64,000 nt of DNA from Seonamhaeicola sp. S2-3. GTDB lineage: Bacteria; Bacteroidota; Bacteroidia; Flavobacteriales; Flavobacteriaceae. Below are positions 7,216 through 59,532 of the stretch, piece after piece. The notes under the pieces are model-generated. The model had not been told where the DNA came from. It saw nothing but the letters and a program-made list of their open reading frames with translations, and ran no database searches. The stretch spans positions 1,313,001-1,377,000 of the forward strand of contig NZ_CP019389.1 in assembly GCF_001971785.1 (NCBI RefSeq), given 5' to 3'. Position numbers and translations under genes: made by a program. Within the stretch, counting starts at the first letter, position 1. Each line of letters begins with the position of its first letter.

Positions 7216-8220
7216 TTAAGGTACTTCTATTTCGTTTACTATTTTGTTGATAATGTCTACTGAAGTTATATTTTCTGCTTCAGCCTCATAAGTAATACCT
7301 ATTCTGTGGCGCAATACATCGTACACTACAGCCCTTACATCCTCTGGAATAACATAACCACGTCTTTTAATAAAAGCATAACACTTAGCTGCGGTTGCTA
7401 AATTGATACTTCCACGAGGTGATGCCCCAAAAGAAATAAGCGGTTTTATATCGGCTAGCTTATATTTTTCTGGATACCTAGTAGCAAAAATGATATCTAA
7501 AATGTATTTCTCAATTTTTTCATCCATATAAACCTCTCTAACTACTTTTTGAGCAGTTAAGATTTGCTGAATGGAAACCACTGGATTAACCTTTTCAAAA
7601 GCGCCTTTCATGTTGGCACGCATTATTAATTGCTCTTCGTCAATTTTAGGATAATCTATAACGGTTTTTAGCATAAAACGGTCAACCTGAGCTTCTGGTA
7701 ACGGGTAAGTTCCTTCTTGCTCTACTGGGTTTTGGGTTGCCATTACTAAGAAAGGTTTATCTAACACAAAAGTTTCATCGCCAATAGTAACTTGTTTTTC
7801 TTGCATGGCCTCTAGCAATGCCGATTGTACTTTGGCTGGTGCCCTGTTAATCTCATCTGCCAAAACAAAATTGGCAAAAATGGGTCCTTTTTTTATTGAA
7901 AAATCATTTTCTTTTATGTTATATATAAGAGTTCCTACTACATCGGCAGGTAATAAATCTGGTGTAAACTGAATTCTGCTAAAGCTACCATCTACTGCCT
8001 GTGACAAGGTATTAATTGCTAAAGTTTTTGCAAGTCCAGGAACACCTTCTAATAAAATATGTCCCTGCCCCAGTAAGCCAATAAGCAAGCGTTCTACCAT
8101 GTGCTTTTGACCTACAATTACTTTATTCATTTCCAACATAAGTAAATCAACAAAAGCACTTTCCTTTTCAATCTTCTCGTTAATTGTCTTAATATCAATT
8201 GTACCTGTTTCTTCCATCAT
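7216..8220 (-). CDS. MoxR family AAA+ ATPase
   Basis: The 334-residue protein has Walker A GVPGLAKT (residues 59-66) and Walker B LADEINRAPAK (D122-E123). The sensor region contains MATQNPVEQEGTYPLPEAQVDRF, characteristic of MoxR ATPases. These act as chaperone-like ATPases that modify or assemble VWA-partner proteins. It is the first gene of the bat operon. A second Met directly follows the first, so the start could be either. A candidate promoter lies just upstream (8240-8271). Confidence 0.95.
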   Translation of the reverse strand: MMEETGTIDIKTINEKIEKESAFVDLLMLEMNKVIVGQKHMVERLLIGLLGQGHILLEGVPGLAKTLAINTLSQAVDGSFSRIQFTPDLLPADVVGTLIYNIKENDFSIKKGPIFANFVLADEINRAPAKVQSALLEAMQEKQVTIGDETFVLDKPFLVMATQNPVEQEGTYPLPEAQVDRFMLKTVIDYPKIDEEQLIMRANMKGAFEKVNPVVSIQQILTAQKVVREVYMDEKIEKYILDIIFATRYPEKYKLADIKPLISFGASPRGSINLATAAKCYAFIKRRGYVIPEDVRAVVYDVLRHRIGITYEAEAENITSVDIINKIVNEIEVP

Positions 8221-56462: not shown

Positions 56463-58361
56463 ATGAGTGATATTCTTAAACACGAGTGTGGTATAGCCGT
56501 TATAAGACTTTTAAAACCTTTAGAATATTATAAAGAAAAATATGGCAGTGCATTTTATGGCGTAAATAAAATGTACTTAATGATGGAAAAACAACACAAT
56601 AGAGGACAAGATGGTGCAGGTTTTGCCAGTATTAAGTTAAACACCAAACCTGGAGAACGTTATATAAGTAGAATTAGATCTATTCAACAACAACCTATTC
56701 AAGATATTTTTTCTCAAATTAATGACAGAATTAATAATGAGTTTAAAGCGCACCCTGAATATTTAAACGATGTTGCAGCTCAAAAAAGAAATATTCCGTA
56801 TATAGGAGAGTTACTACTTGGTCATGTACGTTACGGTACCTTTGGCAAAAACAGTGTTGAAAGTGTTCATCCGTTTTTAAGACAAAACAATTGGATGCAT
56901 CGTAATTTAATTATGGCTGGTAACTTTAACATGACCAATGTTAAAGAATTATTTAGCAATCTAATAGAATTAGGCCAACACCCAAAAGAATATACAGATA
57001 CCGTCACTGTGATGGAAAAAATTGGTCATTTTTTAGATGATGCTGTAAGTAAAATATATAAAGACTTAAAAAAAGAAGGCTATAATAAACGTGAAGCATC
57101 ACCACAAATAGCAGAACGATTAAAAGTAGCCAAAATTTTAAGGCGTGCTGCAAAGAATTGGGATGGTGGTTACGCTATGGCTGGTCTTATAGGTCATGGA
57201 GATTTCTTTGTATTAAGAGATCCTGCAGGTATACGTCCTGCATACTACTACAAAGATGATGAAGTAGTTGTTGTAGCTTCAGAACGTCCTGTTATTCAAA
57301 CCGTATTTAATGTAAAATTTGAAGATGTAAAAGAATTAGACCCAGGACATGCTATTATTACAAAAAAATCTGGAGAAGTAAGATTTAAACAAATATTAGA
57401 ACCCTTAGAACGCAAAGCCTGCTCTTTTGAACGCATTTATTTTTCTAGAGGAAGTGATGCCGAAATTTATGAAGAACGAAAAATGCTAGGTAGGTTATTA
57501 ATGCCTAAAGTAATGCAAGCCATTAATAACGATACCAAAAACACAGTTTTTTCTTATATACCAAACACAGCAGAAACATCGTTTTTTGGTATGATAGAAA
57601 CTGCCGAAAATGAACTTAATAAAACTAAAACTAAAACCATTCTATCTGGGCAACGTAACATATCGGCAGAAAAAGTAACCGAAATTTTATCTGAAAGAAT
57701 TAGAGTTGAAAAAATTGCCATAAAAGATGTAAAACTAAGAACCTTTATTACAGAAGATAGTAGTAGAGACGATTTAGTAGCCCATGTTTACGATATTACC
57801 TATGGAGTAGTAAAACCAAATGATAACTTGGTAATTATTGATGATAGTATTGTACGCGGAACTACATTAAAAAAGAGTATTTTAAAAATGCTTGATAGGT
57901 TAAATCCTAAAAAGATTATAGTCGTGTCATCAGCTCCTCAAATTCGTTATCCAGATTGCTATGGTATAGATATGGCAAACCTTGAAAGCTTAGTGGCTTT
58001 TAGAGCTGCTTTAGAATTACTTAAGGATAATAATAAATACCATATTGTTGAGAACGTTTATAACAAGTGTAAAGCTCAAGAAGACCTAGAAGATAAAGAC
58101 GTACAAAACTTTGTAAAAGAAATATACAATCCTTTTACTGCAGAAGAAATCTCTAATAAAATTGCTGAATTATTAAGTGATGAAAGTATAAATGCAGAGG
58201 TAAAAATAATTTTCCAAACCATTGAAAATTTACACAAAGCTTGTCCTAAAAACTTAGGAGATTGGTATTTTACAGGTAATTACCCAACAGTAGGAGGAAA
58301 TAGAGTTGTAAACAGAGCATTTATTAATTTTTACGAAGGAAATAAAGAACGAGCCTATTAA
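56463..58361 (+). CDS. PurF-like amidophosphoribosyltransferase family protein
   Basis: The 632-residue protein has an N-terminal Ntn glutaminase domain whose nucleophile is C9 (KHECGIAVI), so an 8-residue propeptide would have to be removed. HNRGQDGAGFA and LLGHVRYGTFG follow. The phosphoribosyltransferase domain has the PRPP loop LVIIDDSIVRGTT (~456-470). It is longer than a usual PurF (about 470-510 residues), with extra sequence at ~70-110, ~180-215 and at the C-terminus. It may catalyse the first step of purine synthesis or be a paralogue with a different acceptor. A possible standard purF elsewhere in the genome cannot be seen here. Confidence 0.85.
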   Translation: MSDILKHECGIAVIRLLKPLEYYKEKYGSAFYGVNKMYLMMEKQHNRGQDGAGFASIKLNTKPGERYISRIRSIQQQPIQDIFSQINDRINNEFKAHPEYLNDVAAQKRNIPYIGELLLGHVRYGTFGKNSVESVHPFLRQNNWMHRNLIMAGNFNMTNVKELFSNLIELGQHPKEYTDTVTVMEKIGHFLDDAVSKIYKDLKKEGYNKREASPQIAERLKVAKILRRAAKNWDGGYAMAGLIGHGDFFVLRDPAGIRPAYYYKDDEVVVVASERPVIQTVFNVKFEDVKELDPGHAIITKKSGEVRFKQILEPLERKACSFERIYFSRGSDAEIYEERKMLGRLLMPKVMQAINNDTKNTVFSYIPNTAETSFFGMIETAENELNKTKTKTILSGQRNISAEKVTEILSERIRVEKIAIKDVKLRTFITEDSSRDDLVAHVYDITYGVVKPNDNLVIIDDSIVRGTTLKKSILKMLDRLNPKKIIVVSSAPQIRYPDCYGIDMANLESLVAFRAALELLKDNNKYHIVENVYNKCKAQEDLEDKDVQNFVKEIYNPFTAEEISNKIAELLSDESINAEVKIIFQTIENLHKACPKNLGDWYFTGNYPTVGGNRVVNRAFINFYEGNKERAY

Positions 58362-58395: not shown

Positions 58396-58434
58396 AAAAA
58401 GTGTATTTCATCTATTAAATACGCTTTTTATCTA
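58396..58434 (+). terminator. Terminator of the PurF-like gene
   Basis: AAAAAGTGTATTT pairs with AAATACGCTTTTT (one G-U) around an 8-base loop, followed by more T residues. Confidence 0.85.
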
Positions 58435-58474
58435 ATAAATAATCCTGTTATCTAAAATACACATAAATTGGTAC

Positions 58475-58548
58475 CACCATAACATAAGTAGGTTAAGTTC
58501 ATGGTAGATTTGGGGCAAAAAAAGGTGAACTCTCGTTCGCCTTTTTTT
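58475..58548 (+). ncRNA. Tandem small RNA candidate, copy 1
   Basis: This copy begins CACCATAACATAAGTAGG and shares its first 42 bases with copy 2 except for one C/T change. It ends in an intrinsic terminator whose stem GGTGAAC/GTTCGCC (one G-U) differs in sequence from copy 2 but pairs equally. The -7-like box TAAATTGG (58464-58471) is degraded, so it may be weakly expressed or depend on another start. The RNA family is not recognised. Confidence 0.65.
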
Positions 58549-58668
58549 ATGCAATTTAGACACCTAAATTACATAGAATTCTTTCAAAAAAAGCACTTCA
58601 TTTCATTTCACCCTAATTTTTAAACCTTATCTCTATTAAGCCAATTTATTAGTAGTTCACCCAAAATA

Positions 58669-58700
58669 TTTCACCAGTCTTTAGCACAAATATATCTTTG
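58669..58700 (+). promoter_or_regulatory. Promoter of tandem small RNA copy 2
   Basis: TTTC at 58669-58672, 20 bases and a perfect TATCTTTG at 58693-58700. Transcription should begin within the first few bases of the conserved unit. Confidence 0.6.
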
Positions 58701-58703
58701 AAG

Positions 58704-58775
58704 CACCATAACATAAGTAGGTTAAGTTTATGGTAGATTTGGGGCAAAAAGGTGAGCGTTCTAGCTCACCTTTTT
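58704..58775 (+). ncRNA. Tandem small RNA candidate, copy 2
   Basis: The unit starts just after a good promoter and ends in a perfect terminator stem (AAAAAGGTGAGC with GCTCACCTTTTT). Within the conserved part, CCATAA can pair with TTATGG, leaving the G-rich stretch GATTTGGGGCAAA unpaired as a possible seed. Compensatory changes against copy 1 in the stem support RNA-level selection. Confidence 0.7.
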
Positions 58776-58923: not shown

Positions 58924-59532
58924 CTACTTTGCTTCTGCATAACGTTTTTCTACTTCATTCCAGTTAACAACATTAAAAAATGCTTTAATATAATCTGGAC
59001 GTCTGTTTTGGTAGTTTAAATAGTAAGCATGCTCCCATACATCTAATCCTAAAATTGGAGTTCCGCCACAACCAATACTAGGCATTAACGGATTGTCTTG
59101 GTTAGCAGTAGAGCAAATTTCTATTTTACCGCCTTTATGAACACATAACCAAGCCCAACCAGAACCAAAACGTGTTGCTGCAGCTTTACTAAATGCTTCA
59201 ATAAATTCATCTTTAGAACCAAAAGTAGACTCTATAGCGTCTTTTAATTCGCCAGATAAATACCCTCTATCTTCTGGATTCATAACTGCCCAAAACAAAG
59301 AGTGATTGTAAAATCCGCCTCCATTATTTCTAACAGCAGCATTATCTAGGTCTAAATTAGTAAGAATATCTTCAATAGATTTTCCTTCTAAATCTGTACC
59401 TGCTATTGCATTATTTAAATTGTTAGTATATCCTGCGTGATGCTTAGTATGGTGTATTTCCATTGTACGTGCATCAATATGTGGTTCTAATGCATCATAT
59501 GCATAACCTAAATCTGGTAATTCAAAAGCCAT
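58924..59532 (-). CDS. sodA: Superoxide dismutase, Mn-type by sequence
   Basis: The 202-residue protein has metal ligands H27, H77 ([11 protein letters not shown]), D164 and H168 ([19 protein letters not shown]). The Gln that tunes the metal is Q145 in [10 protein letters not shown], the Mn-type position, but cambialistic or iron use cannot be excluded. It converts superoxide to oxygen and peroxide in the cytosol. A -7 element TAAATTTG lies ~38 bases upstream. Confidence 0.95.

Follow-up and report, generated by a model that had tools for sequence, protein, structure and literature searches.

Two tandem units between a purF-like gene and sodA

The window, a 64,000-nt stretch of the chromosome of Seonamhaeicola sp. 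S2-3, carries two short forward-strand units, flanked by a purF-like gene and sodA, that resemble two small-RNA genes (Table 1). Their cores are spaced 229 bases apart, and from the initial CACC (58475/58704) to the A-run the copies differ at a single position (GTT[C/T]ATGG); the A-run itself comprises 7 bases in copy 1 and 5 in copy 2, resulting in a 2-base difference in length. The terminator stems (GGTGAAC/GTTCGCC in copy 1, GGTGAGC/GCTCACC in copy 2) have diverged in sequence yet remain paired, with an A-T pair replaced by G-C and a T-G wobble by T-A. Folded singly, each unit is predicted to form two hairpins (the two might also be transcribed jointly), and none of 200 dinucleotide shuffles folded as well as either unit (z = -3.63 for copy 1 and -4.24 for copy 2). 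An earlier note on this DNA had described the spacing, the lone difference ahead of the A-run, the diverged but paired stems, the unequal lengths and a perfect -7 box before copy 2, all of which were borne out when the sequence was read again.

Table 1. Features of the two units and their surroundings (positions in the window)
Feature	Position	Strand	Basis or remark
Possible upstream element, copy 1, TTTTATCTAATAAAT	58426..58440	+	Suggestive; consensus across the family is weak, some 50-40 nt ahead of the core
-7 promoter box, copy 1, TAAATTGG	58464..58471	+	One mismatch to TAnnTTTG; Bacteroidetes-type
Small RNA gene, copy 1, C allele	58475..58548	+	R1 match G000:C1:1371475-1371547 (window 58475-58547)
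41-nt core, copy 1: stem-loop CCAUAAC...GUUCAUGG, then unpaired UAGAUUUGGGGCA	58477..58517	+	Conservation; structure predicted
Intrinsic terminator, copy 1: A-run, GGTGAAC-TCTC-GTTCGCC, T-run	58517..58548	+	Sequence, folding, alignment
-7 promoter box, copy 2, TATCTTTG	58693..58700	+	Fits TAnnTTTG; Bacteroidetes-type
Small RNA gene, copy 2, T allele	58704..58775	+	R1 match G000:C1:1371704-1371775
41-nt core, copy 2, GTTTATGG variant	58706..58746	+	Conservation
Intrinsic terminator, copy 2: A-run, GGTGAGC-GTTCTA-GCTCACC, T-run	58746..58775	+	Sequence, folding, alignment
purF-like amidophosphoribosyltransferase gene, usual upstream neighbour	56463..58361	+	Context
Superoxide dismutase gene (sodA), convergent, usual downstream neighbour	58924..59532	-	Context

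The units appear to be non-coding, as the variable A-runs and terminators break the frame. Nor can they be leader sequence for a gene further along the window, since the next one, sodA, is convergent. The 632-aa product of the purF-like gene scores 126 against the NCBIfam purF equivalog; because this is far under the cut-off of 350, the protein may be a divergent form.

A probable multicopy RNA family with a tightly constrained core

A pattern search with the 41-nt core (CCATAACATAAGTAGGTTAAGTTYATGGTAGATTTGGGGCA, at most 3 mismatches) recovered it, mostly in identical form, from 20 of 59 genomes, that of the window included, and the reversed 41-mer had no match in the same 59 genomes; a chance repeat is therefore excluded, as it is by the folding of the units relative to shuffled sequences. 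A covariance model (R1), a check that the earlier note had named, matched 250 of 299 genomes of the family (E <= 0.01, some weakly), and a search with it found no third copy in the window's own genome. Order-wide, 33 of 246 sampled genomes matched R1 at E <= 1e-5, 32 of them from the same family and one, with a weak match (9e-6), from another. A terminator-specific pattern run over named genomes gave 92 stretches, and the 80 matches listed come from many Flavobacteriaceae genera and a few metagenome bins labelled otherwise.

Genomes mostly hold 1-7 copies, in arrays of up to seven. When neighbour motifs were sought within about 1.5 kb on each side, 100 of 113 distinct arrays had the purF C-terminal motif, 93 the superoxide dismutase motif and 86 both (misses include cut neighbours), such that the position between purF and sodA, which the earlier note had proposed to count, is mostly kept. 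Multi-copy arrays (n = 82) start with the C allele in 77 cases and end with the T allele in 53. Promoter boxes are also widespread: within the last 22 nt of the non-redundant upstream regions from the family, TAnnTTTG occurs in 106 of 195 and TAnnTT[TAG]G in 160 of 195. One array (L251:450-1100, genome G125) consists of diverged sRNA-like units in which both seeds and terminators have changed.

To assess structure, 47 copies were aligned (42 distinct rows; L019 and L079 were left out, as the terminator cut failed on both). In helix 2, the terminator, 8 of 14 pairs were changed on both sides, whereas in helix 1 no pair was changed on both sides and 8 of 11 pairs never vary among the 42 distinct rows. 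The compensatory changes emphasised in the earlier note thus hold for the terminator and fail for helix 1, and because covariation is to be expected in every intrinsic terminator, it is little evidence on its own. The core is more constrained than its structure requires. Variants do occur (CCATAGC..., GGTAAGATTT, and, in genus g147, CATTAGTAGG), and one helix 1 pair is broken in the CCAGAAC or CCTGAAC copies of L162, L169 and L172. Duplicated regulatory RNAs with their own promoters and terminators, as the earlier note proposed, remain the best reading, with abundant homologues that carry the conserved block, whose absence was part of the refutation set out in that note; that note understated the observation, having seen neither the target described below nor the constraint on the core beyond structural need. 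We consider it probable that the two units are members of one multicopy family spanning the Flavobacteriaceae.

Relation to described RNAs

The Rfam 15 scan of the window returned no match above gathering score, ruling out a described Rfam family and agreeing with the earlier note, whose author recognised none. OmrA and OmrB, compared for homology through Rfam scans alone, are near-identical siblings with variable 3' parts that belong to another phylum and promoter type. They are named as a paralogous sRNA pair in PMC11697453, which also describes FopS of Bacteroides: paralogous sRNAs of about 65-70 nt, with sigma-ABfr-type promoters, 12-15 copies per genome and a seed at the 5' end, that pair near start codons and repress translation of targets that are mostly susC-like mRNAs. 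The units described here share with FopS the presence of multiple paralogous copies with their own promoters, and start-codon pairing is predicted for them; unlike FopS, they mostly number 1-7 per genome, begin with a stem-loop and have the mRNA of a small ORF as their predicted target. The FopS model (RF04319) scored 19.4 bits at window positions 58492-58551 (E = 1.8) versus a gathering score of 56. The family would work like FopS, yet is no member of it by model score.

Within the Flavobacteriaceae, Rfp18 of Flavobacterium psychrophilum is presented in PMC9723704 as a genus-conserved sRNA with predicted pairing to secreted-protease and adhesin mRNAs. Compared by description, its pairing region is a third stem-loop, versus two hairpins per unit here. 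One of the Rfp sRNAs of that species, or one of the candidate sRNAs of F. columnare (PMC5395568), may be the same RNA as these units. Flavo-1 RNA (RF01705) appears in PMC9723704 as a short element widespread in Flavobacteriaceae; its model had no match over the units and one elsewhere, in L422. In the literature searched we recognised no description of this RNA, and a sequence-word search led to an unrelated virus paper.

A small ORF whose leader is complementary to the core

An unannotated ORF of 50 aa (MEPNLPELP...YLTKKIFML; G000:C1:1570655-1570804) lies on the chromosome that carries the two sRNA units, 199 kb from them (1371475 in G000:C1), and its leader contains a perfect complement to 26 nt of the core. 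Apart from the two copies themselves, this is the only exact 26-nt match in the genome of the window, and it reads in the opposite sense. The complement includes the first ATG, but G001, G002 and G012 lack this codon, and it is the next ATG that is conserved as the start; the complement is therefore leader sequence.

The ORF was found in 59 of 299 genomes by single-sequence search and in 107 of 299, a few of them weakly, by a profile that gave one match per genome. All 107 ORF-positive genomes are also RNA-positive, and none of the 49 RNA-negative genomes has an ORF match (co-occurrence table 107/0/143/49; Fisher p = 3.7e-11 in a test that ignores shared ancestry). The remaining 143 of 250 RNA-positive genomes had no ORF match, though the profile is weak for 26-29-aa peptides, and some of this absence may be missed detection. 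A second profile, applied to 80 chosen genomes, added 12 matches, two of them weak (0.006 and 0.007), with none in the 22 genomes of genus g147 or in 17 RNA-negative genomes. One match, in G011, appears to be spurious: it falls in a stop-containing frame of 581 aa. Among 17 sequences, pairwise substitutions in the last 26 codons numbered 741, 255 and 1545 at codon positions 1, 2 and 3, and because of this pattern and the profile matches in 107 of 299 genomes, the small ORF looks like a real gene.

The small protein is conserved beyond the part encoded within the pairing region, and in the four peptides computed the C-terminal 22 residues are amphipathic, with a net charge of +3 to +5. Searches with 30 members returned only insignificant matches in Pfam (best DUF3511, E = 0.082; Tsi6, 0.16) and no match in NCBIfam. 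In the promoter region of the small ORF, a recurring TGTTAAAA...GCATTTCATCGA...GTTTTTAATCTGAT was noticed by eye and left uncounted (e.g., L083 at about 1360-1420, and many of L084-L112); it is perhaps a regulator site.

A small, positively charged amphipathic peptide, a long antisense match to its leader and an ORF match that never occurs without the RNA would all suit a dispersed pair resembling type I toxin-antitoxin systems, in which the peptide would be membrane-active and the RNA its antitoxin. We consider such a pair very unlikely: the RNA is neither opposite nor beside the ORF, the two being 199 kb apart here, there is a single ORF match per genome, and the RNA is retained in genomes that have no ORF match.

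Predicted pairing at the start codon

Candidate leaders were taken from 102 loci, four of which (L295, L300, L436 and L439) yielded no leader by the C-terminal filter; the other 98 gave 71 distinct leaders, which are homologous and hence amount to fewer than 71 independent tests. The best core-leader duplex had a median energy of -36.9 kcal/mol and a median z of -6.5, with 65 of 71 beating all 60 dinucleotide shuffles, and in 64 of 71 at least one base of the start codon was paired. As background, 1982 windows of the 64-kb stretch gave -19.3 +/- 3.7 kcal/mol, with a minimum of -38.4; energies of 27 of 71 leaders fell under this minimum and those of 59 under the mean minus 3 sd, and the leader in the window's own genome (-49.7 kcal/mol) was far outside the background range. 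The duplex that sets the background minimum, at window position 8065, requires a long bulge and falls on the strand opposite a 334-aa ORF; it was taken as background. For the weak ORF matches L441, L443, L292 and L293, pairing of the leader was little or no better than that of shuffles. The small-ORF mRNA (236 nt, leader and ORF) has no marked fold of its own (z = -0.98).

Which part of the core the leader complements differs by clade. Most loci of the ORF search contain CCAAATCTACCATRAACTT; the loop part (CTTAACCTACTTATG or close to that) is matched in certain other genera, where the start codon falls within the match. Leaders of the CTTACC type, which bear on whether targets covary with the sRNA variants GGTAGATTT and GGTAAGATTT, were seen in L238, L239 and L442, a set biased by the fact that L238 and L239 were found by the matching pattern.

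Gene anatomy, conservation, tandem paralogy, complementarity and co-occurrence are all read at the level of sequence, and from them we infer transcription, pairing in the cell and the direction of regulation. The defining traits of a trans-acting base-pairing sRNA (an independent unit, a conserved seed and a complementary target leader) are present in this form, and the units probably encode independently transcribed RNAs of about 72-74 nt that repress translation of the small amphipathic protein, whose mRNA is the probable cognate target. Each sRNA would be made from its own promoter and end at its own terminator; its core would pair with the small-ORF mRNA over a stretch that runs from the start codon back to about -35, keeping ribosomes off and repressing the small protein, and several copies under separate promoters would allow control by dose or condition. 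The whole core may be kept by the use of different parts on different targets, and it is perhaps also recognised by a protein.

The pairing interpretation has its weak points, among them the lack of covariation in helix 1 and the CCAGAAC and CCTGAAC copies that break one of its pairs. Invariance of 8 of the 11 helix 1 pairs is also more than pairing with one leader seems to need, as might be expected if the stem-loop mainly bound, and titrated, a protein and the antisense matches were side effects; that explanation leaves the start-codon complementarity and its repetition in leaders unexplained, and we regard it as highly improbable, the least probable of those weighed here. The strongest point against a single target is the set of 143 of 250 RNA-positive genomes without an ORF match: because these include 22 of 22 genomes of g147, targets other than the small ORF must, judging from this distribution, exist.

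If translational repression by these RNAs is right, it adds an sRNA family found in 250 of 299 sampled Flavobacteriaceae genomes and absent from Rfam 15, a specific mRNA as its cognate partner, and a family of small proteins without a significant Pfam or NCBIfam match. It would also lend itself directly to tests of RNA-based regulation in a phylum with, to our knowledge, few known sRNA targets or RNA chaperones.

Further complementary sites

The exact 13-mer GGTAGATTTGGGG occurs 55 times in 17 genomes, and its reversed control was never found in the same genomes. By position, 45 of these sites are sRNA copies, 5 are small-ORF sites, 4 lie in 3'-UTRs and 1 falls within a 695-aa ORF (L249). The four 3'-UTR sites (L250, in the window's own genome near G000:C1:3000100, L246, L247 and L248) stand downstream of a gene, shortly before the terminator. 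All three genes scanned (L250, scanned as L004, L246 and L247) encode a type IX secretion sorting domain, with three scores above the NCBIfam cut-off, two of them below that of Pfam. The 3'-UTR sites came from a search for exact seed matches, and their duplexes (-32.7 to -36.2 kcal/mol) are no stronger than the best background window. Two subtilase-type protease genes (G241 and G181) have the complement in their leader. These secreted-protein sites, few in number and found by a matching search, resemble the targets reported for Rfp18 in PMC9723704.

Sites of this kind bear on the direction of regulation. The small-ORF mRNA, together with the 3'-UTR sites, might mainly titrate the sRNA and thereby relieve other targets, the protein being secondary. 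Consistent with such a sponge are the repeated complements in the leaders of G030, G034 and G035, each with one more in the first codons, the units of G061 and G181 that carry the complement but no long ORF, and the 3'-UTR sites in secreted-protein genes. However, 64 of 71 leaders have a best duplex that reaches into the start codon, as translational control predicts, and protein conservation extends past the paired part; we therefore judge this direction unlikely and favour repression of the small protein by the sRNA. A broader arrangement is possible, and we advance it tentatively: a family-wide circuit of two RNAs, in which a near-unchangeable multicopy sRNA and a small-protein mRNA with a reverse-complement leader would control each other, and antisense units and the 3'-UTR sites of secreted-protein genes would act as decoys. 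The origin of the sRNA could be an inverted duplication of the leader.

The units without a long ORF take two forms. In G061 (L234:1030-1180 and 1340-1480), two tandem units contain CCCCAAATCATATCATGAACTTAATC and a terminator-like hairpin, with a predicted sRNA duplex of about -41 kcal/mol, and are possible antisense or sponge RNAs. In G181 (L237:1052-1120), a promoter-like TGCATCTTTG, the complement CCCAAATCTTACCATAGACTTTT and a terminator follow one another with no ORF of at least 40 aa across them, making this short unit a possible decoy RNA. In L233, L235 and L236 (G032 and G158), CCCAAATCTTACCA adjoins similar GCGCATGGA...GATAAGCG sequence.
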